64,000 nucleotides of DNA from Candidatus Bathyarchaeota archaeon. Its GTDB lineage: Archaea > Thermoproteota > Bathyarchaeia > Bathyarchaeales > Bathycorpusculaceae. The translations under genes were made by a program, and so were the position numbers. Of this stretch, positions 1-18,549 are shown piece after piece; within the stretch, counting starts at the first letter, position 1, and every line of letters begins with the position of its first letter. The stretch covers positions 273,808-337,807 of the forward strand of contig JAOZIH010000001.1 in assembly GCA_026014545.1 (NCBI GenBank), read 5' to 3'. Under the pieces are notes generated by a model. That model ran no database searches and was not told the origin of the DNA. It worked only from the letters and a program-made list of their open reading frames with translations.

Positions 1-670
1 GCGTTTCCTCAACAAAAACAGCAGTCACCAACTTAGCACTGTCCACAGTGATAGTCGCTGGATTCGCAGAGCCAGACAAGTCTCCTACCCAATGATCAAA
101 AACCCAGCCGTCAGCAGCAACAGCCGTCAAAGTAACCTCAGTGCCAGCCGAATAAGCGGGTTTATCAGGAGACTTAGTCACTGAACCACTACCCTCCACA
201 CTAACCGACAAAACATACTCAACAGGCGTTTCCTCAACAAAGTTGGCGGTAACTCTTTTGTTGCCGTTTATTATTATCGTTGCAGGGTTTTGGTTGCCAG
301 TTAAATCTCTCGTCCAATTGAAGAATGACCACCCAGTGTTTGGAACCGCAGTCAACTCAACTGCATCGCCATAATAGTATGGTCCAGTACTATTAAGAGT
401 AACAGAACCAGAGCCAGTGGGCGATATGGATATGCTTAATGTGTATTGTATTTTGGTGAATTCGGCAGTAACACTTTTGTCTCCATCCATTATTATTGTG
501 GCTGGGTTGTTGCTTCCCATCCACGCTAAATCATCACCCCATTTTGAAAGTTTATAAACAAGGGGATCTGTTGCAACCGCGGTTAATTGGACACGTTCTC
601 CGTAGGCATAAGTTGCCTTGTCAGGATTTTTAATGACCGAGCCTGTGCCAACAGGTGTTGTGGATATGGT
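1..670 (-). repeat. Tandem InlB-type repeat units inside the surface protein gene
   Basis: Three successive units (about 1-228, 229-450, 451-670) encode copies of the same ~75-residue beta-rich repeat. Bases 1-16 and 229-244 are identical, so the array probably continues past the left edge. The outermost unit uses more G/C-ending codons than the two inner ones. Confidence 0.7.
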
Positions 671-2338: not shown

Positions 2339-2403
2339 TTTCGTTCCTCTCCCAAAACTATCTGTTAATACGAAGAATAAGAACTTAAATCTTTCTGAGT
2401 TAG

Positions 2404-2411
2404 TTTTATAG
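2404..2411 (-). promoter_or_regulatory. TATA box for the surface protein gene
   Basis: On the minus strand CTATAAAA lies about 66 nt upstream of the proposed start and about 50 nt upstream of the GGGAGAGG ribosome-binding site. That is a normal archaeal promoter layout with a short leader. It is predicted from sequence only. Confidence 0.4.
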
Positions 2412-2470
2412 AAAAAATTTGAAATGTTATAGAAATTTTTACGCATTACGGAAAATAGCATAAATTCTTA

Positions 2471-3595
2471 TTAAAGCAATTCATTCAGTTGGCTATAAAT
2501 TGAGCGTAGTTTTTTGCAAACAACATCTATTGAATATTGTTCTTTTACCAGTTTTTGCCCTTCAGAAGCCATTCTAAATCTAATTGTTTCGTTTTCAAGC
2601 AAATAGGCTAATGCTTCTGCCAAACGTTTGGGATCACCTGGAGGAATTAAAATACCAGTTTTATTATTTTCTATTATCTCTGGAATACCACCAACTGGAG
2701 TTGCTATTACAGGAGTCTCGCATGATAGCGCTTCTAAGATCGTTACAGGAAAGCCCTCTGCGTATGATGGTAGAACCAACAGGGAAGCTTTTTGATACCA
2801 TTTTACTATTTCGCTTTGTTCCATGGCACCCAAGTAGTCAATTTTGTGCAGTCCTTTACTGTTTTCTTTTTCAATTAAATATAGTAGGTTTTGGTAATAA
2901 TTGGTATTCCAGTCAGGTGGTCCAATTATGACCAAATGTACATTTTCTTTTAAATATCTCAAAGTTTTTATCAATATGTGCAATCCTTTAAGTTCGGAGA
3001 TTCTTCCAACGTACAGAAGCAAGTTTTCTTCCTTAGGTTTTTCTGGTTTAAAGAAGTTTGTGTCTATACCATTTGGCACGTAACTAATTCTACTTTCTTG
3101 AAGCCCAAGGGCTATTAACTCTCTTGTCATTTGTTTTGAAATAGAAATATACATTTGGGCAACATGTTTTAATAAGAGTCTGCTGATGTGATGCCTTTTT
3201 AGGAAGTTAGGGTTAATTCCGTGTAAATGGAGTAACTTGGGTTTTTTTCTGAATAAGGAAAAGAATGGGAAGCTCAGTTCAAATTCATGGAAATGCAGAA
3301 TATCATAGTTTTTTAATATATTGGTGAATCGGCCGGGTACAAAGTTGACCCCTGCGGTAATTCTAATTGAATGCAATTTCCACAACCAATTTAACGCGGG
3401 AATTCTGAATACGGTGATTCCGTCAATTTTTTCTGTTTCTCCGCGCCATTTTGGCTTTCTATTTTGATTGACATTGAAGGTCATCACATCTGTTTGTATA
3501 ACGTTTTTATTAAGGGTTATAGCAAGATTCCGCACTATTGTTTCTGTACCACCCCTAACAGGATAATAACAAGGAGAAATCATTAAAACTCGCAT
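2471..3595 (-). CDS. Family 4 (GT-B) glycosyltransferase
   Basis: A 374-residue retaining GT-B glycosyltransferase that transfers a sugar from a nucleotide sugar to a growing glycan at the cytoplasmic face. The N-terminal domain has the typical PVRGGTETIVRNLA glycine-rich loop. The C-terminal Glycos_transf_1 domain has LLYVGRISELKG (~190) and the EGFPVTILEALSCETPVIAT donor-site signature with the E-x7-E pattern (~280). Full length for the family. GGGAGG sits 4 nt before the ATG. The neighbours form a minus-strand run of glycan genes. Donor and acceptor cannot be read from the sequence. Confidence 0.9.
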   Translation of the reverse strand: MRVLMISPCYYPVRGGTETIVRNLAITLNKNVIQTDVMTFNVNQNRKPKWRGETEKIDGITVFRIPALNWLWKLHSIRITAGVNFVPGRFTNILKNYDILHFHEFELSFPFFSLFRKKPKLLHLHGINPNFLKRHHISRLLLKHVAQMYISISKQMTRELIALGLQESRISYVPNGIDTNFFKPEKPKEENLLLYVGRISELKGLHILIKTLRYLKENVHLVIIGPPDWNTNYYQNLLYLIEKENSKGLHKIDYLGAMEQSEIVKWYQKASLLVLPSYAEGFPVTILEALSCETPVIATPVGGIPEIIENNKTGILIPPGDPKRLAEALAYLLENETIRFRMASEGQKLVKEQYSIDVVCKKLRSIYSQLNELL

Positions 3596-3613
3596 AGTTC
3601 CTCCCTAAATCGG

Positions 3614-4567
3614 TCATAGATAAGTCTCGCAGAAAAATTCGTGAAAATGGTCTTTTATGAATTTGGGATAATAGTTGAAGCGGTTTATGGCCCAACGCAT
3701 GCTTGTTTGGTAACAGTTATCAATTTTTTCTTTGGTTATTGTTGTTTTTTTGTCTGAGGCATTGAGGTTAATACGAGTGTCTATAATTTTGGCTCTCTCT
3801 AAAGCTTTTATTTGTTTCATTAGGACTTCGAGCTTTTGGAGTATGCGGGCTATTTCCTTTGCTGGTCTTTGTGGAACTGTTCTAAGCATTTTTGGGTTTC
3901 CTCTATAATAGATAGAGTCCCATTCTATTTGGTTTACAAGTAAGGTAGGGTGCAGATCAAAGACTGTTATGGTGTGTCTCCTGATCGAGTTTAACAAGCA
4001 GGTATAATCGTATAATGTGCCGTTCCATCGTTGTGTTGCTGTGAATGGATAAAAAGTCGTTCTTTTATAGGAGACTGGTTCTGAAAGTGATAGATTTGAA
4101 GAAAAATCATATTTTATTCCTAAACTATTTAATGCCTCAAGAAGTGGCGGTGTCCAGCACATGCCCGGCGCTCTAAAAGCTTGAATTTTTTTAGGGTGAA
4201 ATACATCTTGGAGAGTGCATATACCACCTTCACCTTCTATGCGGCCAGTGAGAGGATTTATGTGGGAAGTCTCCCTTTCTAAGGCAATTCTGTAAGCTTT
4301 TTCGTAATTTTTCATGTCGGTGTATTCGGGAATTGTTGGATGTACGGAGTGACTAGAGGAGTGATAGCCAATTTCGTGCTTTTTGAGAGCAGCAACAATT
4401 TTGGGATAGTTTCTTATTTTTTCAGCCATATGTCCTGTTATAAAAAAGATGGCAGTTAGCTCATGCTTTTGTAGCATTATTAGTATCTTTTGAAGCGCGT
4501 AGATAGCGTTTTGATTTATGAAATCCTCTACATCAAACGTAAACAAGAATTTATGTAGTTTGGCCAC
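3614..4567 (-). CDS. Polysaccharide deacetylase (NodB-like) family protein
   Basis: A 317-residue protein of the NodB/CE4 fold that would remove N- or O-acetyl groups from a saccharide. The N terminus has FTFDVEDF (catalytic and metal Asp pair). The metal-binding H-(S)xxx-H segment is YHSSSHSVHP (~95). ImRAPG is represented by FRAPGMCWTP. No signal peptide is seen, so it probably acts in the cytoplasm on a lipid-linked intermediate. Start is GTG with GAGG upstream. It sits 19 nt from the GT4 gene and 30 nt from the next gene, so it is probably co-transcribed. Confidence 0.8.
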   Translation of the reverse strand: MAKLHKFLFTFDVEDFINQNAIYALQKILIMLQKHELTAIFFITGHMAEKIRNYPKIVAALKKHEIGYHSSSHSVHPTIPEYTDMKNYEKAYRIALERETSHINPLTGRIEGEGGICTLQDVFHPKKIQAFRAPGMCWTPPLLEALNSLGIKYDFSSNLSLSEPVSYKRTTFYPFTATQRWNGTLYDYTCLLNSIRRHTITVFDLHPTLLVNQIEWDSIYYRGNPKMLRTVPQRPAKEIARILQKLEVLMKQIKALERAKIIDTRINLNASDKKTTITKEKIDNCYQTSMRWAINRFNYYPKFIKDHFHEFFCETYL

Positions 4568-4596
4568 TAATGTCTAGCCTCTTGAAAAATTATTTT

Positions 4597-5643
4597 TCAG
4601 ATGTCGTTACATACTTTTATTGGTTCGTTTTTATTAAGAGATTCTTCAATGTATTCTAACAGTCTTACTGTTTTTCGACCTTCCTCTGGAGTTACTGGAG
4701 GCGTTATATCGTTTTTGATTGATTCAATGAATTTTGTGAGAAGGATATACTGAGGCAAGTAGTTTATTAGTTTGCGGTTACGGATATTAGCCACAAAAAA
4801 CTTCATCCATTTTTTTATTATTTGTTTTTGGTCTCGATAAAATCCTTCTAAAAGGTTTTTTTCCGGTCGTTCTGAATGTTGCAAGAGGAAGTTGTAGTTT
4901 TGAATTTCAATTTTTCTGCCGGTTGAATCGATAAATTCAAACAATTCCTCTTCTTTTTTAGCAAGCCATGAAATTTCTATTGTGCCTATTGTTTTGTTTG
5001 AGCTTGTTAACATTATTATGAAGTGATCCGGGACGGAGTGCTTGATTTTTTCACCTATTGCCCAAACTTTTTCTATACTTTTTAGGAAGTGCAGTTGGAG
5101 GTAAGCAGCGTGGGCTCCTGTTTCCCATAAAGCTCCACCTTGTTCGGGCGTCATTATCCAGCTTGGCGCCCCTATAAGTTCTGCGCTTTCTCTGACAGAT
5201 ACTTTTAAGTAGGCTAAGTGGAAGTTGCTTGAATCAATTATTTCTTTAGCTTGCAAAACTGTTGGCAAAAACAATTGATTATGACAGATACATAGTTTAA
5301 CTCTATTTTTGGAAATTTCTTTAATCATTTGGTCACATTCTTTGCTACTCCGCGCCATAGGCTTTTCTAAGAAAATATTATTCCCAGATTTCGCCGCTTC
5401 GCAAACTAATTTTGCATGAGTAGAAATTGGTGTACAGATATCTACAAAGTTTAAGTCTTTAAGTTCAAAAAGTTTTAATGGATCGCCATAGACTCCCTTA
5501 ATACCATGTTTTTGGGCGAAAACTTTAGCACGGTCTATGTTTATATCTGACACTGCCACAACTTTTACTTCAGGGATATTTCTGTAGGCATTCATATGAA
5601 AATCAGAAACTCTGCCACAACCAACCAAACCAACATTCAACAT
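4597..5643 (-). CDS. Gfo/Idh/MocA-family NAD(P)-dependent sugar oxidoreductase
   Basis: A 348-residue dehydrogenase of the Gfo/Idh/MocA family. The Rossmann loop GLVGCGRVSDFH is at the N terminus, then FVDICTPISTH and the catalytic-Lys motif LEKPMARS (~95-102). The C-terminal beta-sheet substrate domain is complete. Members oxidise or isomerise nucleotide sugars such as UDP-HexNAc derivatives. A close paralogue lies at 12452-13510 (shared IHMNAYR-like, VVAVSD, FVDICTP and EKPM blocks), so the cluster has an internal duplication. Substrate unknown. Confidence 0.88.
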   Translation of the reverse strand: MLNVGLVGCGRVSDFHMNAYRNIPEVKVVAVSDINIDRAKVFAQKHGIKGVYGDPLKLFELKDLNFVDICTPISTHAKLVCEAAKSGNNIFLEKPMARSSKECDQMIKEISKNRVKLCICHNQLFLPTVLQAKEIIDSSNFHLAYLKVSVRESAELIGAPSWIMTPEQGGALWETGAHAAYLQLHFLKSIEKVWAIGEKIKHSVPDHFIIMLTSSNKTIGTIEISWLAKKEEELFEFIDSTGRKIEIQNYNFLLQHSERPEKNLLEGFYRDQKQIIKKWMKFFVANIRNRKLINYLPQYILLTKFIESIKNDITPPVTPEEGRKTVRLLEYIEESLNKNEPIKVCNDI

Positions 5644-5651
5644 TTAAGCAC

Positions 5652-6251
5652 CTACCACCGTAAATTTTTAATTGCTACAATTAACTCGGAAAATTTGCAG
5701 AGGACCCCAAAAAGAATTAGGCGTTTCAAAAAGTAACCTAAAAAAGGTATATTACTAAAAAACAATTTCTCTTTGATTTGAACCCCAATTCCATATATTG
5801 TATACTCCTTAAAAAAATCTAAATATTTCCAAAATGAAATGTGCTTTTCGAATGGATTTTTTCTTAATTCATTCTGTAAGTATCTAAAATTTGGTGTAGA
5901 AACAATTATTTTGTCTGTAGAAATTTTCTCCAAGGCCTCAAGAAAAATCTTGCCATTATATTTAGGAAGATGTTCTATTATTTCGCAGGCCAAAATGATA
6001 TTTATTGATTTTACTTTAAAAGGTAAATTTATAGCGTCAGCTAAAATAAGATCATCATATATTTTCTTATACTTTATTTTTAATAAATAAGGTTTCCATA
6101 CATCAATACCTACCAAATAAGAAGGATTAGAATAAGCTCGAATTTGATGCCCCCACAAGCCAAAACCACAGCCAATATCAAGAAAACTTTTCCTTTTCGC
6201 AGATTTTAATTTAGGGATAATAATATATTGAAGTCTACGGTCGCTTGACAA
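5652..6251 (-). CDS. Class I SAM-dependent methyltransferase, short
   Basis: A 199-residue Rossmann methyltransferase. Motif I is FLDIGCGFGLWG (~23), motif II acid VGIDVWKPY, then DAINLPFK and the post-motif CEIIEHLPKY typical of Methyltransf_11/23. It would methylate a small molecule, probably a sugar or lipid intermediate of the cluster. The start is a TTG just after an in-frame stop, so the N-terminal region is short for the family. The gene lies 8 nt from the downstream oxidoreductase. Very AT-rich. Confidence 0.75.
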   Translation of the reverse strand: MSSDRRLQYIIIPKLKSAKRKSFLDIGCGFGLWGHQIRAYSNPSYLVGIDVWKPYLLKIKYKKIYDDLILADAINLPFKVKSINIILACEIIEHLPKYNGKIFLEALEKISTDKIIVSTPNFRYLQNELRKNPFEKHISFWKYLDFFKEYTIYGIGVQIKEKLFFSNIPFLGYFLKRLILFGVLCKFSELIVAIKNLRW

Positions 6252-6286
6252 AATACATGCAACCTTTTAAACTATATTTCAGGGCA

Positions 6287-7243
6287 TTAAACACTTTCCT
6301 TAAATATAAATGAATAATCCTCTTCCTTCACATTTTTAATGTACCTTACGAGGACAACATATGAAGTTAGAATGTGCTTAATGCTCGTAGCATTAGGAAG
6401 CGCCCAAAGCAGCCTCAATGCTATGCGGCCTAATTCACTCCAAACAAATACTATTTTATTTTTCAGTGTTTGTTCAATATTATTGTAAAAAAAGCTAATA
6501 GGATAAGCTGTGATAATACAGGCTCGCCATTTATTTAAGTTTTTGGTTGGAAAATTATCGTGATACACTTTAGCATATGGAGTTTGGAATAGACTGTTCG
6601 GGTATACCTTATGAATTTTGAAAGAAAATTCTTTATCTTCGCCCAAAGAATAACCAAGCAATTTTTCATTAAAGTAAAATTTATCGAAAATTTCCTTTCT
6701 ATACGCAACATTCAAACCAAAAAGCCACTCACATGAAATTATTTTATTGAGATTACAAGCATAAGTTGTTTTACCTGAAGGAAGCATTCGACATCTATTA
6801 ATTTCTGCGTGCCAATAATAAAATGCTTTCTTAAGAGAATTCTCTAAGTGGGAATATGGAAAATTTACTACTGTGCCTTGAACACCTAAAGCGGTGGGAT
6901 ATAGCTCAAAAACTTCCAATATCTTTTTAACATAGTTTTTGTCCAATATTACATCGTCATCAAGAAAAAGCAAAATGTCGCCTTTTGCCTTTTTTGCGCC
7001 AAGATTTCGAGCCCTAGAAATGCTTTTAACCTCATTTTTTGAGGACACAAAATGTCTAATTATTATACCTTTTTCTAAAAAGTAACTTCGCAATCGCTCG
7101 ATTAATTCTGTCGTTCTAAAATCGTCACTGTCATCTACAACAATAACCTCATTTACATGTATTGATTGTGTCAAAATTGAGTACAATAACCTCTCTAATT
7201 TTTCACTTCTGTTTCTTGTCGGGATAATTATGGAAACTTCCAT
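6287..7243 (-). CDS. Family 2 glycosyltransferase
   Basis: Inverting GT-A glycosyltransferase. The fold starts with MEVSIIIPTRNRSEKL, so I start it at ATG 7243; the frame stays open to 7309. The nucleotide-binding segment is VIVVDDSDDFR, the metal-binding DxD is LLFLDDDVILD (~100), and the ED motif is GEDKEFSFK. The C terminus is amphipathic and may associate with membrane. It is a plausible rhamnosyl- or hexosyltransferase of the surface glycan pathway; the substrate is unknown. Confidence 0.85.
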   Translation of the reverse strand: MEVSIIIPTRNRSEKLERLLYSILTQSIHVNEVIVVDDSDDFRTTELIERLRSYFLEKGIIIRHFVSSKNEVKSISRARNLGAKKAKGDILLFLDDDVILDKNYVKKILEVFELYPTALGVQGTVVNFPYSHLENSLKKAFYYWHAEINRCRMLPSGKTTYACNLNKIISCEWLFGLNVAYRKEIFDKFYFNEKLLGYSLGEDKEFSFKIHKVYPNSLFQTPYAKVYHDNFPTKNLNKWRACIITAYPISFFYNNIEQTLKNKIVFVWSELGRIALRLLWALPNATSIKHILTSYVVLVRYIKNVKEEDYSFIFKESV

Positions 7244-7347
7244 TCTAAAGTACCTCATATATTTCTCTTGAGTCATTTGTTCATAATTTAAGAGAAAAAT
7301 ATTGAGCACAGCTCAGCATCATATACATTAATAGCAATCTTGTTAAG

Positions 7348-8673
7348 TTATTGAATTATTTTTGAAATGAAGAGTTTTCTCTTACCAGTTCTTCCCATCG
7401 GAATTTTGTCAACAACTTCTATGGTTATCTCTACATGCGCGTCTAATTTACTAAACTCCTCTTTCAAACTTTTTTTTACTTGTTCTAGTATTTTTGGGGC
7501 AAATTCTCTTCCCTTTACAATTTTTAAGATGATATGATCTTTTCGATCCTGTATTATTTGGTATTGTGAAAAAGCAAATATGTTATATCTTAATATTTTA
7601 TGAAATACTGCACGTTTAATGTAAAAATGAGAAAATTTTCTGCCATTTGGTAATACTAAATAATCGTCAGTTCTGCCTTGAATGTTTTTTATTAGTGGCC
7701 ATGACCGTCCACACGAGCATTTTTCATCTGTTGGAATCCCTATATCACCGATTCTATATCGGATAAGAGGCATAACGTAATTCGAAAAACTTGTAATTAC
7801 TATTTCTCCTTGTTCAGTTGGAGACACTGATTCTCCAGCATCATCAACAAATTCAACAAAAGCAGTATTAGTTATCATATGTAACCCACAATGTTCATTA
7901 CATTCAAAAGCCAAATTACCAAACTCAACACACCCATAAACTTCGAATGGTTCCAACCCAAACGTTTTTCGACATAGTTCTCTGCAATGTTCGGTAACCA
8001 CTTCTCCTCCGGTAAATACAACCCTAGGGCTTACTCCAAAAAAGCCATAATTTACTAGGGTAATTAGAACTGAAGGGAAAATACTTAAAACGTCAGGTTT
8101 TATTAGTCGCAAAATACGTATGAGTCTCGCAGGAGTAAACAAAGGCACAACTGTTTCACTTACCCCTCCCCATAAACGCACATATTTCTTGCCCCATCGA
8201 ATAGACTTAGAGTCTCGACCCCAAACAGTAACAAAATTATCATCTGGCCTCACACCACATTCGGAATATATATAGCGTGCTACAGCATTATAATAACCGA
8301 AGTTTCTAAATGAGAAATCACGGTAAATTTTTAATGGAATACCAGTTGAACCAGAAGTAACTCCAAAAGGCAACCTTGATACATCAACACCATTCACCAC
8401 CATATCGGCAAAATTCTGCTGAACAGCATTCTTGGATAACAGAGGAATTTTTTTCACATCGTCCAAATTTCTAATATCATTAGGTCTAATATTTACGGAT
8501 TTAAACAGTTTATGATAATATGGAATATAATAATAAGCATGTTTGAGAACGGTCTTTAACTTTTTAAATTGAATCACTTTAAGGTATCGCAAATCTTTCC
8601 ATTGATCCTTTTTGAGCTGACACATATAATAATTTGCTATTGATTCAGCCATTAATTTTCTAAGCTTATCCAT
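7348..8673 (-). CDS. PaaK/CapK-like adenylate-forming enzyme
   Basis: A 441-residue ANL-superfamily protein resembling phenylacetate-CoA ligase and CapK proteins of capsule clusters. The phosphate-binding loop is GVTSGSTGIPLKIY (~105). The zinc-finger-like cysteines and A5 motif are in YGCVEFGNLAFECNEHC. A7 is YRIGDIG, followed by CSCGRSWP, A8 GRTDDYLVLPNG and a late Lys region GRTGKRKLF. Such proteins activate an acid with ATP, in glycan clusters probably to acylate or amidate a sugar. A TATA box and AAGG precede the ATG. The substrate is not predictable. Confidence 0.82.
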   Translation of the reverse strand: MDKLRKLMAESIANYYMCQLKKDQWKDLRYLKVIQFKKLKTVLKHAYYYIPYYHKLFKSVNIRPNDIRNLDDVKKIPLLSKNAVQQNFADMVVNGVDVSRLPFGVTSGSTGIPLKIYRDFSFRNFGYYNAVARYIYSECGVRPDDNFVTVWGRDSKSIRWGKKYVRLWGGVSETVVPLFTPARLIRILRLIKPDVLSIFPSVLITLVNYGFFGVSPRVVFTGGEVVTEHCRELCRKTFGLEPFEVYGCVEFGNLAFECNEHCGLHMITNTAFVEFVDDAGESVSPTEQGEIVITSFSNYVMPLIRYRIGDIGIPTDEKCSCGRSWPLIKNIQGRTDDYLVLPNGRKFSHFYIKRAVFHKILRYNIFAFSQYQIIQDRKDHIILKIVKGREFAPKILEQVKKSLKEEFSKLDAHVEITIEVVDKIPMGRTGKRKLFISKIIQ

Positions 8674-8700
8674 GGCACAAAACCTTCTTAAATGTGCATA

Positions 8701-8710
8701 TTATATATAA
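8701..8710 (-). promoter_or_regulatory. TATA box upstream of the PaaK-like gene
   Basis: TTATATATAA on the minus strand lies 28 nt upstream of the ATG at 8673, the normal archaeal distance for a leaderless or nearly leaderless transcript. It may drive the minus-strand run from the PaaK-like gene toward the surface protein. Confidence 0.5.
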
Positions 8711-8761
8711 ATGCGCGAAGACAATGAGCGACAGTTGTATTTTAGTTTTTTTAATGTAAGG

Positions 8762-10891
8762 TCATGATGCATGGGTGTAAAAAACTTCACTTTCACCACT
8801 AGTATATACCTTACTCATATTATTTAAAAATTGAAAATCTGTTATATTCCAAATATATCTTCCAACAATAATAGTTCCTTCAATAACATTTGATGGATTC
8901 AAGTATACAACGCTTCGCGTTTTAAATTGTGTCACATTTGACAGCGTACCTACATAACGTGTGTATATGCCACCATAAGCTTTTAACTCATGTGCCCGCG
9001 AGGAAGGTTCCGCGTAAATTGTTATATTTCTTGCAGTTACCTCATTGGATAACCATATTGCCGCACAGATATGGTGCTCATTCGCATAACCAAAAGTATG
9101 GTACACCTCGGATTGGCTCATTCTATGTTTACTTAAAGAAAGCGACAAACTCGGACTATTTGTTAATTCATATACAAAACCTGTTTGAAACAGAAAATAA
9201 GGTATAAGCACCATGATCAGCAAAACAGAGGTTTTTAATACATCCCTACGTTTTGCTATGAATATTATAATGCTTTCTGAGCCTATCACACACAAAGGTG
9301 CTATGAAAAATAATAAGACATGATAAAATCTTGTCATATTCATTGTATCCGCTAAGCCAGGTACTACAATAAGAGCACCGAGAAATAGCATAGATACACA
9401 AACCAAAAAAAAGTATTCTTTTTCCAGATAGATTTTAGTTCGTTTCAAGATGATATAGATGAACCCCACAACGATTAGAGCTTCAGTCATATACGCGAAT
9501 ATTCTACTGATCAGATTCCATATGGTAGGTGGTAGTTCAAGCCCCAATCCGCGCAATACTTCTGGTTCCCTATGATTTATATTGAAAAAATCGCCTAATT
9601 CATTGTAAACACGCTCCCCAAATGTTAGAAAAGCATCAAAAACTGATGAACTTGACATATAAATGTACCAAACAAACATCATAGCAAAGAAGCACAAAAC
9701 GAAAGTTAAAGTTACTTTTCTACTAGGCTTTCTTGTTAGTATTGCAATTATTAAAATAAAAGAAACGAGAAAAAGGAATATTTCTGCTAATGCATAGTGG
9801 GATACTATAAGGGCGAAACTAAAGAGAAATGAAAGCACAATTCTTTTGATTCCACTTTCTTTTTCTCTAAGTACGACCGTCAACAGCAAAACTAAGAACA
9901 TTTCTCCCAAAATCTGTTTATTTAATCCTAAGATTTCACCATAGAAAGATTGAAATGACATAAAAAAGAAAGCTGAAACGAAAGCAGTCCTTTCGCCTAC
10001 AAAATTTTTCCATAAGTTATAAAGTCCAAGCGGAACCAAAGCTAAAAACAACGAATAGAAAAGCTTGAAAACAAGTATGGATTCAAAATTTAGTAAGATG
10101 GAGTATATTGTTGGAAGCAATGTAACACTAAGCATGGCATAGGTTCTGCCAACGCTTTGGTCTCCATGATAAGGATTTGCCGAGTCCCAATAGGCGTTTT
10201 TCTCAACAATTTTTTGGGCAAAAACTTCGCCACCTACATCGGACCCAAAACTAAGGAGTTTATCAGAGACCATTTGAGAATGATAAATTAATGAAATGGC
10301 GATAATTAGTATAATCATCGGGTACAGTTTTGTGAGCACAATTTTTTCAAAAAATAGTGATACTGTAAAAAGTATAGCGATAGTTAGTATAATTAATAGC
10401 AAAATTTTGTTGTCTCCGTAGGCTCCTGAGGCTATAGCGCCTATAATGCTTAATATTGGAATGCAAAGTAGAATAAGTAAAATTGAAGACTTTGGGAAGT
10501 TTAAATTAAAACACTCACTATTCATGTTTCTTAAGTATGCAATCATGGTGCAAGGAAACATGAAAATGTTTATGGTAACTAATATAGACATCAGCGAAAT
10601 CGGTGTTGGAATGTCGAAAAGCAAATAGAGACTATTTACAAGCAGCCCTAATAGCATTAGGAATGCTGTGCTTAGACCCACAGAGAAAAGAATATGTTCT
10701 GTCAAGCTTTTCGTTTGCATTTTTAAAAGTCTAATAAAAACATAGCCTGGAACAAATGTTAGATAAATAAATCCTATGATTTGTTTGGCGACAAAAATAT
10801 CTAAAAGTATAGTTAAGTTTACTATAAATTGAATAAAAAAAACGGAAAGCAGAAAACCCTTATGTCTCTGATTAAGCGCTGGATTACTCAT
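8762..10891 (-). CDS. Polytopic membrane protein, DUF2206/GT-C-like
   Basis: A 709-residue integral membrane protein. About 15 hydrophobic segments span residues ~15-570, and a soluble, probably extracytoplasmic domain forms the C-terminal ~130 residues. A large loop after TM5 or 6 contains WDSANPYHGDQSVGR, and another has FFNINHREPEVLRG. The layout fits archaeal DUF2206 proteins, thought to be GT-C-like glycosyltransferases using lipid-phosphate sugars; that function is inferred. GGGAG lies 8 nt before the ATG. It is divergently arranged with the beta-helix gene over a 54-bp promoter region. Confidence 0.7.
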   Translation of the reverse strand: MSNPALNQRHKGFLLSVFFIQFIVNLTILLDIFVAKQIIGFIYLTFVPGYVFIRLLKMQTKSLTEHILFSVGLSTAFLMLLGLLVNSLYLLFDIPTPISLMSILVTINIFMFPCTMIAYLRNMNSECFNLNFPKSSILLILLCIPILSIIGAIASGAYGDNKILLLIILTIAILFTVSLFFEKIVLTKLYPMIILIIAISLIYHSQMVSDKLLSFGSDVGGEVFAQKIVEKNAYWDSANPYHGDQSVGRTYAMLSVTLLPTIYSILLNFESILVFKLFYSLFLALVPLGLYNLWKNFVGERTAFVSAFFFMSFQSFYGEILGLNKQILGEMFLVLLLTVVLREKESGIKRIVLSFLFSFALIVSHYALAEIFLFLVSFILIIAILTRKPSRKVTLTFVLCFFAMMFVWYIYMSSSSVFDAFLTFGERVYNELGDFFNINHREPEVLRGLGLELPPTIWNLISRIFAYMTEALIVVGFIYIILKRTKIYLEKEYFFLVCVSMLFLGALIVVPGLADTMNMTRFYHVLLFFIAPLCVIGSESIIIFIAKRRDVLKTSVLLIMVLIPYFLFQTGFVYELTNSPSLSLSLSKHRMSQSEVYHTFGYANEHHICAAIWLSNEVTARNITIYAEPSSRAHELKAYGGIYTRYVGTLSNVTQFKTRSVVYLNPSNVIEGTIIVGRYIWNITDFQFLNNMSKVYTSGESEVFYTHAS

Positions 10892-11026
10892 GGCAATAAC
10901 TCCCGCATATTAAAACGTAAGACTTATTATATTGTTTGACAGAATGTGTTAATGCAGTATACACATACAATTGGTGAAACCATAAGAACCACTAAATGTC
11001 AAGAAAAATTCAAAAAGCGGGTAAGC

Positions 11027-12394
11027 ATGAAAAATAAAATACCGCAAACACGTTTTATTGCGCTCTTAGTGTTGATTCTAATCGTTGCTGTATATATTGG
11101 TAATGCTCAACTAATAAGCAAAATAACAATTCCAAATATAGGTCAAATATCGTCGAAAGAAATTTTGGCAAAAAGCGGTTCAGCAGAGGACATACAAGCA
11201 GCTGTAGATGCCGTCGCAATGGCTGGTGGAGGTACTGTATACATACCAGAAGGTAACTTTGCGTTTAACGTTTCAAGAACAAAGTATAACGGGAGAAATG
11301 TGGGTGTTATCATTCCTGGCGGCGTAAGTCTTTTGGGTGCTGGAAAAGATAAAACAAACATTGCAAGTATAACTTATGCGGGTGAGGGCAGCGCTATGTT
11401 TTACTGCGACGGTTCCAACGAGAGACCCATTAGAATTTCAGGTATAACATTTAAAGGCTACGTTTATGGAGACAAAGATTCTGATACAGGAACCTATGTT
11501 GGATATGGTATTTACATGTACAACGGCAAAAAATTCCGAATTGATCATTGCCGTTTCATCGATTTTCCAAGTGCAGGAATCAAAGCTACCTGTTATACTT
11601 CGCCTTCAAAGTTAGAAAATGGGGAATATCAATATTACTGGAATTGGGGAGTAATAGATCACTGTGACTTTGACAATCCATACAAACTTAATTCAGGAAG
11701 TTGGAGTTGGGGTTATGGCGTGGATGTACATGGAGGCGGAGGCGGAACAACCTCTCAAGCGTGGTTGTATAATCTCTCGGACATACTTGGTAAATGGGAT
11801 ATAGAAACAAATCCCTTACGTTGTGCTTCATATCAATGGAATAGCGCTACGCAGAGTTACAATTTAGTCAACCCTTATGGTGGGAAATACTTTAGATGGC
11901 TTGTTTACATTGAGGATTGCAACTTTAGAAGATGTCGGCATGGTATTGCATCAAATGGTGGAGTATTCTATGTTGCACGGCATAATTATTTTGAAGATAA
12001 TTATCCAATAGGCTGGCCTAATGTGGATGTTCATGGAGCGCAGGGTAATGAAGGATTTTTTGGCGGAAGAGGCGCGGAGGTCTATGAGAATATTATTAAC
12101 GAAACAAAGAAGGCTGATGGATGGGGAATTGATTTTCGTGGCGGCGGCGGCGTTGTTTTCAATAACATGGTAATTAGCTGTAAATACGGAGTTTCAATGA
12201 GATATGAGGGGGAAAACACAAATACTGTTTGCTGGGTTAACGATTTATGGATTTGGAATAACACATTCATAGATGTTATAACTCAGATAGTTGACCCATA
12301 TAGTCTATATGACGAAGAAGTTCAGTACTTCCTTAGGCAACGGCCAAATTACGCACCTTACCCATATCCACATCCACTAGCTATGTCACCTTAG
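11027..12394 (+). CDS. Secreted right-handed beta-helix protein (pectate-lyase-like)
   Basis: A 455-residue protein. I start it at ATG 11027 because this gives a signal peptide or anchor (KNKIPQTR, then a long hydrophobic run); the frame is open from 10946. The mature N terminus SAEDIQAAVDAVAMAGGGTV followed by YIPEGNF is the classic start of Pectate_lyase_3 beta helices, and later segments show repeating short strands (FRIDHCRFIDF, VIDHCDFDNP, WLVYIEDCNFRRCRHGI). It probably binds or cleaves an extracellular polysaccharide. It is the only plus-strand gene of the glycan locus. Confidence 0.75.
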   Translation: MKNKIPQTRFIALLVLILIVAVYIGNAQLISKITIPNIGQISSKEILAKSGSAEDIQAAVDAVAMAGGGTVYIPEGNFAFNVSRTKYNGRNVGVIIPGGVSLLGAGKDKTNIASITYAGEGSAMFYCDGSNERPIRISGITFKGYVYGDKDSDTGTYVGYGIYMYNGKKFRIDHCRFIDFPSAGIKATCYTSPSKLENGEYQYYWNWGVIDHCDFDNPYKLNSGSWSWGYGVDVHGGGGGTTSQAWLYNLSDILGKWDIETNPLRCASYQWNSATQSYNLVNPYGGKYFRWLVYIEDCNFRRCRHGIASNGGVFYVARHNYFEDNYPIGWPNVDVHGAQGNEGFFGGRGAEVYENIINETKKADGWGIDFRGGGGVVFNNMVISCKYGVSMRYEGENTNTVCWVNDLWIWNNTFIDVITQIVDPYSLYDEEVQYFLRQRPNYAPYPYPHPLAMSP

Positions 12395-12451
12395 AAAGTG
12401 AATTATTAATTATCCTTAATTTCAAAGAACAAGCGCTAATTTAAGATTCAG

Positions 12452-13510
12452 TCAATCTTTCAATAAATTTACATTAACGGGTTCTGCTTTATCTAGAGAA
12501 TCTTGTATACACTCTAGAAGCCTAATAGCATTTCTGCCATCCTCGCCGGTTACAGGAGGAGGCAGACCTTTCTTAAGGCAGTCAATATAGCGGCTAATCA
12601 ATTCAAAATGACCAGAAGTCGGTCGCTTAACCTGATCTACAGTAAACTTTGCCCACTTTCGAGAAAGTCTTTTTAAATCGGTTAAGAAATTTTGTGCAAC
12701 CTCAACAACATTGGCAGGAGATGACTGGACCCTTTCTACAATATGACCATGAGGTAGAAATGCTTGCACTCTTCGTCCATCTGCGCTAATAATTTCGTAG
12801 AATATTTCTGATTCCTGTGCAATCCACGAAATTTCCATTATTCCGAAACGACCAGAGGAAGTTCTAAGTAATACTGCAAAATCATCCCAAACAGCGTATT
12901 TCGCTTTGGTACCTATGGCATAAACCTCTCTGATGTCGGTTAAAAAATTCAACTGAAGATATGCAAGATGGGTACCAACTTCCCAAAGAATCCCACCATG
13001 TTCTGATAGTACATTCCAGGGTTGTGCCAAACCATGAGCTTTTAACCATTCAAAATTTTCTCTATGGAATGTTCTGAAAGCAAATAAGTTAAAGTCTTTA
13101 GAGTTTGCTATAGACTTTAAACGCGTTACATAAGGATAAAAAAGCTGATTGTGAGAAACACAGATCTGGGTTCCATGTTTTTTAGCTTCAGTTATCATCC
13201 TTTCACATTCTGCACTGTTTCGCCCCATAGGTTTTTCCACTAAAACGTTTATTCCTGCTTTTGCCGCCTCACAAACAATTGACTCATGTGTCGCTGTAGG
13301 AGTGCAAATGTCTACAAAGTCCAAATCTTTAATATCAAAAAGTTCTCGATAATCTGAGGTAAACTTTTCGATTTTGCAAAGATTCGCAAAAGCTTTTGCT
13401 CTATTAACGTCGACATCAGATACTGCAACAACCTTTACGTTGGACAGTTTCCTATAAGCGTTCATGTGAATTCTGGAAATTCTTCCACAACCTATTAATC
13501 CTACATTCAT
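12452..13510 (-). CDS. Gfo/Idh/MocA-family oxidoreductase, second copy
   Basis: A 352-residue paralogue of the oxidoreductase at 4597-5643. It has GLIGCGRISRIHMNAYR, FVDICTPTATH and LVEKPMGRN (catalytic Lys), then LWEVGTHLAYLQLNFL in the substrate domain. Full length. It lies 1 nt from the downstream end of the upstream glycosyltransferase gene, so it is certainly in that operon. The two copies may act at different oxidation states or on different sugars of one pathway. Confidence 0.88.
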   Translation of the reverse strand: MNVGLIGCGRISRIHMNAYRKLSNVKVVAVSDVDVNRAKAFANLCKIEKFTSDYRELFDIKDLDFVDICTPTATHESIVCEAAKAGINVLVEKPMGRNSAECERMITEAKKHGTQICVSHNQLFYPYVTRLKSIANSKDFNLFAFRTFHRENFEWLKAHGLAQPWNVLSEHGGILWEVGTHLAYLQLNFLTDIREVYAIGTKAKYAVWDDFAVLLRTSSGRFGIMEISWIAQESEIFYEIISADGRRVQAFLPHGHIVERVQSSPANVVEVAQNFLTDLKRLSRKWAKFTVDQVKRPTSGHFELISRYIDCLKKGLPPPVTGEDGRNAIRLLECIQDSLDKAEPVNVNLLKD

Positions 13511-13511
13511 G

Positions 13512-14423
13512 TCATATTCCCCTCGTATTTTTTATGAATAAATGACCATAACCTTTTATATGTGCTTTAGTAAACCCATAGCAGAAAGCGATCCTTTTAA
13601 AAAAATAATGAAAAGGCAATAAACACAGGATTTTTCGTTTAGTTAGTTGGAAAGCAAAAGGAACACGGGAGATTCCAGCTATAAATCCCCCTATAGGAGA
13701 CATTTTGAAAGGAAAAGCAAATGCTTTATTCTTATGGAATACATAATGTCCTCCATAGCCCCACCAAACATATTGATTCCAAATACCAATCCATGATTCT
13801 TGACATATTTCATAGAAAAAAGTATCAGTTACTCGCGCTTCCCATCCTAAGGTTAAGATTCGCCGTGCAAGATCGATGTCTTCGCCGGCGCCTTTTATAT
13901 TTACATCAAATCCTCCAGCGCTTTTTATAGCCTTAACTCTATAAATAGCACCCTCAGTACCACAAATGCCTAATGGTGCTTCTTTTGTAACTCTTAAACT
14001 TTCTACAACAAATGGGATATTTTCTAAGAAAGCAACATAATTAAGTCCATTTAATATTCCATATTTAGCTCGGCCAATACCAACTCGCAAGTTTTTATCC
14101 ATAAATTCCACCTGTTTCCTGACAAAATCTTTGGGAAAAATCGTATCACCATCAACCCAAATTATATAATCGCTTGAAGCATTATCAACAACCGTTTGCC
14201 TAGCAAATCCTAACCCAACATTTTCAGAAAAGAACTTAACAAGAAAATTACTCTTTGACAAGAGATGGCCAATTATTTTTAAAGTATTGTCTTTGCTACT
14301 ACCATCAACGACGATCAACTCTATATTTCTATGAGGGTATTCCTGGCTCAACAAACTTTTTATGACATAGCGAATTGTTTCCTCATTATTTCGGGTACAA
14401 AGCCCTATAGTGACTTCAACCAC
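13512..14423 (-). CDS. Family 2 glycosyltransferase
   Basis: A 303-residue GT-A protein: VTIGLCTRNNEETI at the N terminus, LIVVDGSSKDNT, the DxD segment YIIWVDGDTIF (~95), and GAGEDIDLARR as the ED motif. The C terminus has one or two short hydrophobic segments and a basic end, suggesting peripheral membrane attachment. The GTG start overlaps the end of the next gene by 8 nt and has GAGGG upstream. Paralogous to the following gene. Confidence 0.85.
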   Translation of the reverse strand: MVEVTIGLCTRNNEETIRYVIKSLLSQEYPHRNIELIVVDGSSKDNTLKIIGHLLSKSNFLVKFFSENVGLGFARQTVVDNASSDYIIWVDGDTIFPKDFVRKQVEFMDKNLRVGIGRAKYGILNGLNYVAFLENIPFVVESLRVTKEAPLGICGTEGAIYRVKAIKSAGGFDVNIKGAGEDIDLARRILTLGWEARVTDTFFYEICQESWIGIWNQYVWWGYGGHYVFHKNKAFAFPFKMSPIGGFIAGISRVPFAFQLTKRKILCLLPFHYFFKRIAFCYGFTKAHIKGYGHLFIKNTRGI

Positions 14424-15342
14424 TCATATCCCTCGAGTTTGGTTCATAATTTATCAAATGACTGGCTAAAAAACCCATGTTCCAAGCGACGGCTTTGAAG
14501 AAAAAGAGCAAAGGCAACGAAAAAACAATTTTTTTACCAATTAAAGAGTAAATCTTAACTGCATCTAAAAGCCCAGCTACAACAGCTATTAGTGGAAACA
14601 TCTTGTATATTTTAACTGCACCCTCATTTTTATGTGAGAAATAATGAGCAAAATATCCTCTACGCCAATATCTTTCCCAAATAACTTTAATATCCACTTT
14701 TTTTCTTTCGTAGTCGCTAAATTCAACATTAACAGTATCTAACGACCAGCCAAAAGCTCTTACTCTCAATTCCAAGTCGAAGTCTTCATAATAACCTCGC
14801 ATACTCTCGTCGAATATGCCTGTATCCGAGAATATTTTTGCTCGGTATATTGCACCGCCTGTTCCAAGTGATTTAAATTTTGCCTTCTCGTGCCTATAGT
14901 CCACCATTCTGCTGGCTGCTCGAGAATACGCTTCAAGAGCACCTAAAATAGTAACACTATCGTTTAGAGACTGCTGCCCTTTTGCGATGCCTACTTTCGG
15001 ATTATTTTCCATAAACTCAACAAGTTTTCTTATATATTCTGAAGAGATTATAATATCGCCATCCACCCAAACAATAAAATCGCCAACAGCGTTTTTTACT
15101 ACAACATTTCGCGAATATCCAATACCCTTCCATTTATGGTGGAAAATTTTCACTTTCAAGTCAAGTGATGAAGCATACTCTTTTATTAATAAGAGCGTTT
15201 TATCGGTACTCCCGTCATCAACAAAAATAACTTCTATAAGTTCATGTGGATAATCTTGATTCCTAATACTTTCAATAGCTTCTCTAATAGTATTTTCACA
15301 ATTTCTCACACAAACGCCTACAGTAACTTTAGGTTTTCGCAA
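14416..15342 (-). CDS. Family 2 glycosyltransferase
   Basis: GT-A glycosyltransferase with KVTVGVCVRNCENTI, VIFVDDGSTDKT, FIVWVDGDIIIS (DxD) and YYEDFDLELR. The frame is open to 15372, but TTG at 15342 follows GAGGT at ideal spacing and gives the standard N terminus, so I start there. It is paralogous to the gene at 13512-14423 (same C-terminal RYWRRGYFAHYFSHK-like region), a tandem duplication followed by divergence. Confidence 0.85.
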   Translation of the reverse strand: MRKPKVTVGVCVRNCENTIREAIESIRNQDYPHELIEVIFVDDGSTDKTLLLIKEYASSLDLKVKIFHHKWKGIGYSRNVVVKNAVGDFIVWVDGDIIISSEYIRKLVEFMENNPKVGIAKGQQSLNDSVTILGALEAYSRAASRMVDYRHEKAKFKSLGTGGAIYRAKIFSDTGIFDESMRGYYEDFDLELRVRAFGWSLDTVNVEFSDYERKKVDIKVIWERYWRRGYFAHYFSHKNEGAVKIYKMFPLIAVVAGLLDAVKIYSLIGKKIVFSLPLLFFFKAVAWNMGFLASHLINYEPNSRDMSG

Positions 15343-15387
15343 TTTATCTACCTCATGACTACAGAATAACAAAAATTTTTGTTTGAT

Positions 15388-16500
15388 TCATCTCTTCCAA
15401 AAAATGTAACGCCGACCAAACAAAAAAGTCATTAAACTACTCACCAAAATAAGATTATCAATAAAAAGTTCAACAAAGATTCGCCTTTTCAGAAGCAACA
15501 AAGCAGAAATCAAAAAAATAATCGCCAAACTGAGTGGAAAAAATGGCTGAAAAATTATTAACGCTATGCTGCTAGCATTCAATATTAAGAAAGCAACAGG
15601 GTTAATAAGGAACAAGAAGATTTCAGGTATTGCTATTCGCTTAGGAAGAGAAAGATGCTTGCCGAACATAAGCTTCAAACATTTGACCCACAAACCAACC
15701 AATTGATTCGCGCGTCTAACTTTGATTTTAAACTTGGGCAATAAAGATGGCGGAAAACTTGTATAGAACACAATTTCAGGAAGCATTATGCTTCGATAGC
15801 CATTTAAGACAACTTTTAAAGCTGTGCCGGAATCATCGGAACCCGTTTCACAGTCAAACAGGTCAAAGGCGTTTCGCTTATAGGCGCAAAATCCGCCTTC
15901 AAATCGGATGGTTGAATGAATCTTTGATTCTGCGAATCTGACGAAATTGGCAAGTTGCAGATAGGATTCCTCAGCCTCAGTAACCCATGATTCACCCGCG
16001 TTTACGTTTACGCCTCTTCCAGTTACAGCTCCTACACGTGCATCAGCCAAGTAGGGCATGGCTTTTTTCAAAATATCTTGAGGCCATCTGGTATCAGCGT
16101 CGGAAACAATTACAATTGGTTTAGTGGACAACTGTAAAGCTTTATTTAAAGCGGTAGCCTTTCCAGCGCGTGGATTCTGCTTTAACAATTTAATATTTAA
16201 ATCAGGATGCCTAAGCCTAAAACGCTCGACGTTATTAACAGTATTATCTTCTGAAGCATCGTCAACGACGATGATTTCCATTTTTTCCATTGGATAATAA
16301 ACATTCCGTATATTCTCCAGCTTCGGCTCAATGTTTGCTTCTTCATTATGAGCTGGAATCAAAATCGATACTTCAGGCTCAAAATCCTCAGTCACCTCAA
16401 TATCCCAAGGCCTGCCAACATTTCTCTTCAAGTAAAGAAAATAAGCTAAGTAAGTTCCTAAGAAAACAAAGGCGGAAAGCAAAAAAATAGCGTGCAACAT
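15388..16500 (-). CDS. Membrane-anchored family 2 glycosyltransferase
   Basis: A 370-residue protein. One N-terminal TM (~3-22) is followed by a GT2 domain (VSILIPAHNEEANI, IIVVDDASEDNT, PIVIVSDADTRWP, and the TGSDDSGTALKVV region), then R/Q-rich RRANQLVGLW like the QxxRW motif of processive synthases, and three C-terminal TMs. The layout resembles polyprenyl-phosphate glycosyltransferases and small synthases, so it may start or extend a lipid-linked chain. First gene of the AT-rich block. Confidence 0.85.
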   Translation of the reverse strand: MLHAIFLLSAFVFLGTYLAYFLYLKRNVGRPWDIEVTEDFEPEVSILIPAHNEEANIEPKLENIRNVYYPMEKMEIIVVDDASEDNTVNNVERFRLRHPDLNIKLLKQNPRAGKATALNKALQLSTKPIVIVSDADTRWPQDILKKAMPYLADARVGAVTGRGVNVNAGESWVTEAEESYLQLANFVRFAESKIHSTIRFEGGFCAYKRNAFDLFDCETGSDDSGTALKVVLNGYRSIMLPEIVFYTSFPPSLLPKFKIKVRRANQLVGLWVKCLKLMFGKHLSLPKRIAIPEIFLFLINPVAFLILNASSIALIIFQPFFPLSLAIIFLISALLLLKRRIFVELFIDNLILVSSLMTFLFGRRYIFWKR

Positions 16501-16523: not shown

Positions 16524-17432
16524 TTATGCTATGGAACCGTTTTGCCTAAGTAACCAAAAGGTTTCTTTAGCATGCTTTTCTTTTGAAACGCCAACTGCAA
16601 CACCCTTAATGTTCGGTAAACCAGCTAAATAGTCTATGGCTTCTGAAGGCTTAAGGTAGCCCGCTGCTAGGATGCTTATAGCCAAAACAGCGGGATTAGG
16701 CAGATTCAGCAAAGCCTTTTCGCACTCAGTTCTTGAGGGAACCATCTGAAAACCTACTTTATTGAATGGCGCCGCGATAACAACATCGTCCATGTTTATG
16801 CGCCATTCCCGAAACTTATTAACCATCAAAGCGAAGTTGCCAGTGTTAAAGCCAGCGGCTAACCCAAGCTTATGCGCATATTTCACATAAAATTTGAAAA
16901 CCCAGTCTAGACCCAATCCCAAACAAAGATCTGTTACAACTTGATGAAGCAGAACCGCCTCTAACACGGCACCTTTCCCTACAGAACGCTTAATCCTCGA
17001 GAGTTCATACAGCAGATATGTCTTGACAAGCGAGCGCAAATCAGATTTGAAAACACCATTTAACCCAGAGGCTGCAGCATTAAGGTTTCCAGAAAAAACA
17101 ATCTCTTTTATCACTTGCTTAGCTAAGCCCGGCACACCACCTGCAGCGCTAGCGAGTCTCACATAATCGTAGGCGCAGGGCACAATAGCATAAAGCCTTA
17201 AACCATCGATGCCGCCGTTCTCACGCAGGTGCTCCAGTATCTTCAGCGTTTTCTCGCTTACGGAGAACATGAAGCCGTCAGCGCCGTTTTCAACCGAAAG
17301 CGCCACAAGTTTAGCTGCGTATGCTGGGTCAGTAGGCGATTCGCCTCTTACGCGGCTGCGCTCTTGAGACAAGTGGCTAATCCCGTGGAAAGGGTTATCG
17401 CCAACAAGCAAAACTTTTCCGCTACTGCCCAT
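16524..17432 (-). CDS. Unrecognised TIM-barrel-like protein linked to an oxidoreductase
   Basis: A 302-residue protein that I do not recognise confidently. It starts KVLLVGDNPFHGISHLSQ and alternates hydrophobic strands with helices (ENGADGFMFSVSEKTLKIL, LRLYAIVPCAYDY, AAGFNTGNFALMV, DVVIAAPFNKVGFQM, GVAVGVSKEKHAKET), which suggests an eight-stranded barrel. No signal peptide or membrane segment. Its first 11 bases overlap the end of the Gfo/Idh gene, so the pair is tightly coupled and it may act on that enzyme's product. Composition is less AT-rich than the glycan genes downstream. Confidence 0.6.
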   Translation of the reverse strand: MGSSGKVLLVGDNPFHGISHLSQERSRVRGESPTDPAYAAKLVALSVENGADGFMFSVSEKTLKILEHLRENGGIDGLRLYAIVPCAYDYVRLASAAGGVPGLAKQVIKEIVFSGNLNAAASGLNGVFKSDLRSLVKTYLLYELSRIKRSVGKGAVLEAVLLHQVVTDLCLGLGLDWVFKFYVKYAHKLGLAAGFNTGNFALMVNKFREWRINMDDVVIAAPFNKVGFQMVPSRTECEKALLNLPNPAVLAISILAAGYLKPSEAIDYLAGLPNIKGVAVGVSKEKHAKETFWLLRQNGSIA

Positions 17433-18420: not shown

Positions 18421-18549
18421 GTATAACTTCCCCGCAGAACAAAACAAATTTAGTTGTTTTACAATTTGATGTAAAATCAGAAAAGCATCATGTTAAGCCA
18501 TAAAATAACAAAACACAAACACATCTGCTACGCTTGAATAGCCAAGAGG

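Follow-up and report, generated by a model that had tools for sequence, protein, structure and literature searches.

A likely exchangeable, exosortase-linked surface-polysaccharide locus with an AT-rich variable middle in a Bathyarchaeota genome

We analysed a 64,000-nucleotide stretch of a Candidatus Bathyarchaeota genome (the window; G000:C33:273808-337807, from an assembly of 1.86 Mb that is 98% complete), in which an initial annotation had described a transferred, AT-rich surface-glycan island between positions 2471 and 16500. Comparison with related genomes indicates that these AT-rich genes are probably the variable middle of a larger archaeal surface-polysaccharide locus of about 36 kb, which is exchangeable and linked to an exosortase. 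This reading rests on gene order, module exchange, a predicted GT-C fold, an intact exosortase triad and intact deacetylase motifs, from which we infer the rest. A surface-glycan pathway is supported by the flippase, the GT-C fold, the exosortase and the conserved gene order. The labels used here (GfoA-D, TIMx, GT2a-d and the like) were coined for this analysis.

Composition, gene order and module exchange

The AT-rich block is genuine, since both GC content at third codon positions (GC3) and codon usage, computed along the DNA, set it apart. The 16 block genes of 150 amino acids or longer have a GC3 of 0.31, the 90 background genes one of 0.50. Low-GC3 genes follow each other for up to 16 in a row, a length matched in none of 10,000 permutations, and codon usage of the block departs from the background (Mann-Whitney p 5e-6). 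The block measures about 22 kb, starts about 5.8 kb before the window at the DUF362 gene and takes in a gene for an FG-GAP repeat protein and PaaK2, the stretch from 2471 to 16500 covering about three quarters of it. Locus GC is also below background in 17 of 19 relatives (the exceptions are G013 and G065), where the background was taken from up to 20 kb surrounding rpoB or, for G038 and G059, from arbitrary stretches. The contrast amounts to about -0.11 in the home genome and to a mean of about -0.05 in the relatives (DUF2206, NodB and GT4 genes). As 17 of the 19 relatives are AT-rich here too, AT-richness is characteristic of this kind of locus. On its own it gives no date for a transfer, and it is rejected as proof that one took place.

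Gene order was compared by tblastn of the home proteins against fetched loci of relatives, and co-occurrence was assessed over 120 genomes. Allowing for insertions and losses, and for genomes that carry only some of the parts, the order GfoC-TIMx-GT2d-GT2c-GT2b-GfoB-beta-helix-DUF2206 is conserved on one side and GfoD-DUF362-GT4-deacetylase-flippase-DPM-exosortase on the other, across families f1, f4, f6 and f7 of the order. The first series, together with GfoD-DUF362-flippase-DPM-exosortase, appears to form a framework with interchangeable cassettes between its two sides. Of the 19 genomes with both TIMx and DUF2206, 13 have the two less than 20 kb apart and the remaining 6 have them on separate contigs. 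GfoB matches (E 1e-60) occur in 9 of the 120 genomes and stand beside the beta-helix and DUF2206 genes in 8 including the home genome; in the ninth, G072, the match was assigned to GfoA and lies on an 8.3 kb contig. DUF2206 itself is patchy (30/120). The deacetylase is found in nine genomes, own included, and within 10 kb of DUF2206 in seven of them, while G105 carries it elsewhere and G072 has no DUF2206. Sixteen genomes have both an exosortase and DUF2206, and in 10 of these the two genes are no more than 25 kb apart. All three pairs co-occur significantly (NodB and DUF2206, p 5e-5; NodB and exosortase, p 1.5e-4; DUF2206 and exosortase, p 7e-4).

The complete locus therefore runs past both compositional edges, and its initially proposed limits are ruled out by the composition upstream and by the gene order in relatives. 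The cluster does not stop with the change in GC at 16.5 kb, because the next two genes, TIMx and GfoC, belong to it in relatives.

The phylogeny of the modules departs from that of the genomes. RpoB is encoded 28-31 kb upstream of the window and has its best matches among archaeal polymerases, in keeping with an archaeal host. In a tree of this protein (without G038 and G059) all nine sampled genomes of the home family group together with a support of 100/100. The same grouping is rejected by the approximately unbiased test for GfoD (p 1.3e-7), NodB (p 0.016), GT4 (p 0.006), GT2d (p 1.2e-7) and DUF2206 (p 1.9e-39). The home genome instead pairs with G074 of family f4 in the NodB (99/97) and GT4 (97/94) trees. 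Rows less than 33% identical to the home protein were excluded from the GT4, GT2d and DUF2206 trees; the GT4 tree has only seven rows. These data indicate that modules have been exchanged between families of one order inside a conserved framework, and that the locus is not one island from a distant donor.

Predicted functions and acyl transfer

The DUF2206 membrane protein is predicted to be a GT-C glycosyltransferase. Its structural model (pLDDT 80, pTM 0.85) retrieves STT3, AglB, PglB, ALG12, ALG9, AftA, ArnT, Pmt and arabinosyltransferases in the top rows (Z 16.6-7.7), with one GPI transamidase entry (Z 10.2) among them; the match to STT3 has a VIA Z of 16.6 and an rmsd of 5.2 over 441 residues, and clearly unrelated entries begin at Z 7.1. 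At the sequence level DUF2206 gave no match to solved structures. Among 18 DUF2206 sequences Asp218 is invariant and Glu222 nearly so. Both follow directly after the helix 187-212, in a part of the model with locally low confidence, and are candidates for what we take to be the GT-C catalytic residue, an acidic side chain in the first external loop. Canonical STT3/AglB is encoded separately on contig C21, and STT3 is present in 19 of 21 genomes searched, the home genome included. DUF2206 is thus an additional GT-C enzyme, and a role as the N-glycan oligosaccharyltransferase is disfavoured.

For the beta-helix protein, a partial profile match to AlgE-type alginate enzymes (E 3e-4) and the structural comparison support a polysaccharide-active enzyme, the reaction not being singled out: an alginate epimerase/lyase and AlgE6/AlgE4 score highest (Z 29.4-28.8), closely followed by the RbmB lyase and by polygalacturonases and an adhesin, the latter two at Z 27-28. 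Its C-terminal tail PYxYPHPL is invariant. In relatives where it was found the gene is opposite in strand to GfoB and DUF2206, except in G013, although these cases were not checked one by one. GfoA and GfoB are 44% identical and reach 120 and 129 bits with the UDP-GlcNAc 3-dehydrogenase equivalog NF040723 (cut-off 450). Because these scores are far under the cut-off, no reaction can be given to the sugar-oxidation step that had been ascribed to the two enzymes. Both were correctly recognized within the stretch, but the whole locus encodes four such proteins, the additional ones being GfoC and GfoD.

The exosortase is identified by PF09721 (E 1.6e-30) and TIGR04178 (42 bits, cut-off 23). Cys210, Arg255 and His276 are invariant in nine homologues and presumably constitute the Cys-Arg-His triad. 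Although the exosortase A model TIGR03109 is the best-scoring specific one, the protein does not reach this equivalog (69.9 bits versus 208); it seems to resemble XrtA in its working but is not classed as XrtA. An EpsI-like C-terminus, suspected by eye, had no such family match. Next to the exosortase are two secreted proteins whose C-termini consist of PDVPLGT or PELPLGT, then a hydrophobic stretch and finally basic residues. A broad version of this tail motif occurs in 33 of the 120 genomes, including 17 that have an exosortase (p 8e-4), with a reversed control pattern also matching many. The narrower P[DE]VP[LF]GT, in which the restriction to Val was chosen after viewing the hits, is found in nine genomes, all nine exosortase-positive (p 5e-6). 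We regard PxVPLGT tails as a lead to the cognate sorting signal. Beside the exosortase, a secreted protein about 13.6 kb upstream of the window (L003:6383-7276, minus strand) combines a thioester domain (PF08341, 21.8 bits, cut-off 22) with Big_1 and a PELPLGT tail, and is possibly a covalent adhesin of the archaeon.

The deacetylase has the residues expected of the CE4/NodB family. Asp12, Glu14, Asp15, His69, His73, Arg132, Pro134 and His206 are invariant in eight homologues (G072, where a contig end cuts the gene, was omitted from the alignment); we take them to be the metal-binding Asp/His/His set, the catalytic base and the RxP motif. Each of the seven other genomes that offer enough context has an acyltransferase gene linked to that of the deacetylase, the enzyme being FemAB-like in six and of the GNAT type in one; G072 was left unjudged on account of its short contig. 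The gap to the FemAB-like gene ranges from 22 bases to 2.3 kb in G009, G013, G038, G096 and G105 and is about 17 kb in G074, and in G107 the GNAT gene directly adjoins the deacetylase. The G013 protein and a second protein of G074 were recognized by scanning with PF13480, the others by their similarity to the G013 protein. FemAB-like genes occur in six of eight deacetylase loci compared with 1 of 11 DUF2206 loci without deacetylase (G034; Fisher p 0.006), in stretches of 8 to 40 kb whose unequal length somewhat favours the deacetylase loci. In G009 an Asp/Glu racemase and an ATP-grasp protein occupy the same variable place. The variable slot thus repeatedly holds candidates for acylating amines, and its enzymes may acylate amino groups freed by the deacetylase.

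This general form of acyl exchange is better supported than the literal one put forward in the initial annotation, in which the deacetylase would remove an N-acetyl group and PaaK1 would activate another acid for the freed amine. PaaK1 is PaaK-like, aligning with 4r1l (E 1e-30) over residues 31-344 including the TSGSTG and GRTDD stretches, which we take to be adenylation motifs. It is not a phenylacetate-CoA ligase by equivalog scores (TIGR02155, 114 bits versus 646; NF041878, 124 versus 700), and it may either activate an acyl group or act as a direct amide ligase. PaaK1 and the deacetylase both appear catalytically competent, their genes are 2.8 kb apart, and the coupling of the same deacetylase with acyltransferases in relatives fits the idea. 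Some PaaK-like matches (NF041596, weak; 6siw; 6wuq) are presumably ligases that need no separate transferase, and exosortase-positive genomes hold more than their share of PaaK-like genes (at least 190 bits, 15 of 120 genomes; p 0.006). However, co-occurrence of these PaaK-like genes with the deacetylase is not significant (Fisher p 0.31), and of the loci compared the home locus alone has the pairing; the other fetched NodB loci have no linked PaaK of the same subtype, G013:C9 giving only a 27% match. In the home locus no acyltransferase was identified by family scans of the main genes or by tblastn with the FemAB-like and GNAT proteins of relatives, and no FemAB-like protein was found in the 144 kb of the home genome examined. 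We therefore consider the literal pairing of PaaK1 with the deacetylase rather unlikely.

Origin of the locus and proposed pathway

Recent acquisition of a foreign island, bounded by the compositional steps and derived from an AT-rich donor that is not of this lineage, would agree with the strong compositional contrast and with absences among close relatives. G014 (RpoB 93%, 96% complete) has no NodB, DUF2206, exosortase, GfoB, TIMx or PaaK match, and the same genes are missing from G001 of the same genus (RpoB 98%). Decayed duplicate fragments at the left side of the locus could be read as a scar. The G001 absence is weak evidence, as that assembly is 85% complete, in 140 contigs, and also without HemL, which was found in five of seven relatives. 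The AT-richness recurs in 17 of 19 relatives, the conserved order passes through both compositional edges, and the searched genes have their nearest homologues elsewhere in the order, in other genera and families. Donors outside it were hardly searched, the deacetylase scan of the genome collection, which yielded only three Paenibacillus loci at 28-32% identity, being the sole case. The initial annotation had named two findings that would argue against transfer, a synteny conserved in the lineage and a composition that matches there, and both were found. Exchange stands on the phylogeny, AT-richness is no evidence of recent import, and we judge a foreign island improbable. Still less probable is that the locus serves N-glycosylation of the S-layer (Agl type), DUF2206 being the oligosaccharyltransferase, since the STT3/AglB-like fold and a best NCBIfam match of GT4 to Agl16, far under its cut-off, are outweighed by the separate, widespread STT3/AglB against a patchy DUF2206, and to our knowledge deacetylase, beta-helix enzyme and exosortase are not parts of the Agl pathway.

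Within the exchangeable surface-polysaccharide locus that we favour, GT2 and GT4 enzymes would assemble a lipid-linked oligosaccharide, which the MOP flippase would move out. DUF2206, probably using a dolichyl-phosphate donor, would then extend or transfer the glycan on the external side, and the beta-helix enzyme may epimerise or cleave the product. The deacetylase would uncover amino groups, and a swappable acyl-transfer enzyme would acylate them, FemAB or GNAT proteins in relatives and perhaps PaaK1 or PaaK2 here. The likely task of the exosortase is to fix secreted proteins with a PLGT tail to the membrane or the glycan, as proposed for bacterial PEP-CTERM/exosortase systems.

Several observations weigh against this scheme. 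A complete set for sugar-nucleotide synthesis was not seen in the locus, which has only a GalE-like epimerase upstream. The exosortase occurs without DUF2206 in 18 genomes and DUF2206 without exosortase in 14; a distance of 23 kb separates the exosortase gene, whose GC is normal, from DUF2206, so that their functional coupling rests on linkage, and the tail motif was narrowed post hoc. The trees were built from best hits, such that hidden paralogy could look like exchange, and G061 forms an extremely long branch in the tree of GfoD. Finally, the beta-helix model has a mean pLDDT of only 69, and its fold is common to many unrelated polysaccharide enzymes and adhesins.

Gene inventory, flanking sequence and known systems

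Every gene listed in the initial annotation was recovered in a Pfam check (Table 1). Further upstream genes of the locus encode DUF362, the GalE-like epimerase, the MOP-type flippase, a DPM-like GT2 and the exosortase-family protein.

Table 1. Genes of the locus. Positions are those of the window; negative values count bases upstream of it (L003 position minus 20000).
Feature	Position	Strand	Evidence and remarks
Large secreted repeat protein, candidate surface protein	1..2461	-	FG-GAP repeats and InlB-type B-repeats (Pfam); inside AT-rich block
GT4 glycosyltransferase	2471..3595	-	Pfam E 8e-43; adjoins deacetylase in G009 and G074 too
NodB/CE4-type polysaccharide deacetylase	3614..4567	-	Pfam E 2.6e-8
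GfoA, Gfo/Idh oxidoreductase, accessory paralogue of GfoB	4597..5643	-	Pfam
SAM methyltransferase, accessory cassette	5652..6251	-	Pfam E 2.9e-7
GT2a glycosyltransferase, accessory cassette	6287..7309	-	Pfam
PaaK1, PaaK/CapK-like adenylate-forming enzyme, accessory cassette	7348..8673	-	AMP-binding 28.3 bits (cut-off 29.9); PaaK 4r1l E 1e-30
DUF2206 membrane protein, predicted GT-C fold	8762..10891	-	Pfam E 3e-46
Right-handed beta-helix protein, secreted or N-terminally anchored	10946..12394	+	E 1e-6; alginate epimerase/lyase-like fold
GfoB, Gfo/Idh oxidoreductase, strict neighbour of beta-helix and DUF2206 genes	12452..13510	-	Pfam, synteny
GT2b glycosyltransferase, framework	13512..14423	-	Pfam, synteny
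GT2c glycosyltransferase, framework	14416..15372	-	Pfam, synteny
GT2d membrane glycosyltransferase, framework	15388..16500	-	Pfam, synteny, tree
TIMx, conserved protein, no Pfam/NCBIfam family, normal GC	16524..17432	-	Linkage to DUF2206
GfoC, Gfo/Idh oxidoreductase adjoining TIMx, right end of framework, normal GC	17422..18447	-	Pfam, synteny
PaaK2, second PaaK-like gene	-2969..-1650		38% identical to PaaK1
GfoD, Gfo/Idh	-6839..-5853		

The FG-GAP gene extends upstream through an assembly gap of 100 N (L003:19901-20000) into a Laminin_G_3/DUF2341 region. This gap, just before the first base of the window, interrupts the B-repeat region of the gene. TIMx gave no credible match to solved structures (best E 0.024). 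In most of the loci examined, GfoD and DUF362 (L003:13161-15061) stand together as a conserved pair; the best NCBIfam match of DUF362 is the Npun_F2552 family, far under cut-off.

The left side of the locus contains decayed methyltransferase-like sequence and duplicated fragments (L003:15300-16540), among them the start of the flippase (92% over 64 nt) and a stretch corresponding to L003:11541-11636, AbrB-like by eye (86% over 96 nt). This is consistent with repeated rearrangement. A PIN-domain gene lies at the right edge (18550-18999); in G009 such a gene, which seems to be frameshifted, separates TIMx from GT2d (L068:5394-5731). Tetrapyrrole genes (HemL-like aminotransferase, ALAD) adjoin parts of the locus in the home genome (19944-21260), G013 and G072 (L024:2692-3939; L027:4585-5562), which may reflect a common chromosomal address or coincidence. 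A TnpB-like (L004:17026-18225) and a homing-endonuclease-like open reading frame (L004:15058-15591), both recognized by eye, lie about 22-25 kb before the window.

In the open-licence literature we found nothing relevant on exosortases in Bathyarchaeota, on FemAB with exosortase and deacetylase or a Bathyarchaeia surface polysaccharide, or on PaaK/CapK in polysaccharide loci, and no mention of DUF2206. Taken singly the parts are mostly ordinary, and the interest lies in their conserved architecture. It would give DUF2206 a function class, that of a GT-C glycosyltransferase. This fold is shared with STT3/AglB and other GT-C transferases, in contrast to the lack of a sequence match to solved structures and the separate true STT3. 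The beta-helix protein is likewise related by profile and fold to the AlgE4/AlgE6 epimerases and PL6 lyases; it is known here by fold and partial profile, and polygalacturonases and an adhesin score nearly as high.

Bacterial O-antigen and capsule (Wzx/Wzy-type) loci are AT-rich, with conserved edges, a swappable middle, a flippase, many glycosyltransferases and discordant phylogeny. The archaeal locus has the same AT-richness, edges, variable middle, flippase, multitude of glycosyltransferases and discordance. It differs in that no Wzy or Wzz was identified in the scans made, a GT-C enzyme stands at the polymerase's expected place and an archaeal lipid carrier is assumed. With this locus, switching of surface chemistry in the manner of capsules would become testable in an uncultured archaeal lineage.

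Another relation is to the bacterial PEP-CTERM/EpsH (XrtA) loci. According to the available text of Haft 2006 (PMC1569441), epsH is nearly always found among polysaccharide genes, with PF00534 and PF01522 neighbours. The archaeal locus shares a triad-bearing exosortase and the linked PF00534 glycosyltransferase and PF01522 deacetylase, both types of neighbour that this paper names. For the FemAB-like proteins of relatives, the XrtA-system FemAB model TIGR03019 is the best NCBIfam model in four of six cases and the second-best in one, with no match in the last, all scores being far below cut-off. In contrast, the present locus is archaeal, its XrtA-specific models stay below cut-off, including TIGR03006 for the deacetylase, the tail is PxVPLGT instead of PEP, and PaaK-like enzymes stand where relatives carry FemAB. 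DUF2206 and the GfoB/beta-helix pair are not among the features described in the text available for that paper (PMC1569441). The relation thus appears to be a likeness of kind with distant homology of parts, not membership. More tentatively, the locus might be a matrix system distantly homologous to XrtA loci, in which export genes and the GT-C/beta-helix pair form a fixed framework, amines on the polymer that the deacetylase has opened are capped by enzymes of the FemAB, GNAT or PaaK type with differing acyl or aminoacyl residues, and the exosortase joins PxVPLGT proteins, including the thioester-domain protein, to the polymer. If so, each lineage would have its own surface chemistry from exchangeable re-acylation cassettes. 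The likeness to XrtA loci would also suggest that a link between exosortase, deacetylation and FemAB acyl transfer exists in both prokaryotic domains.

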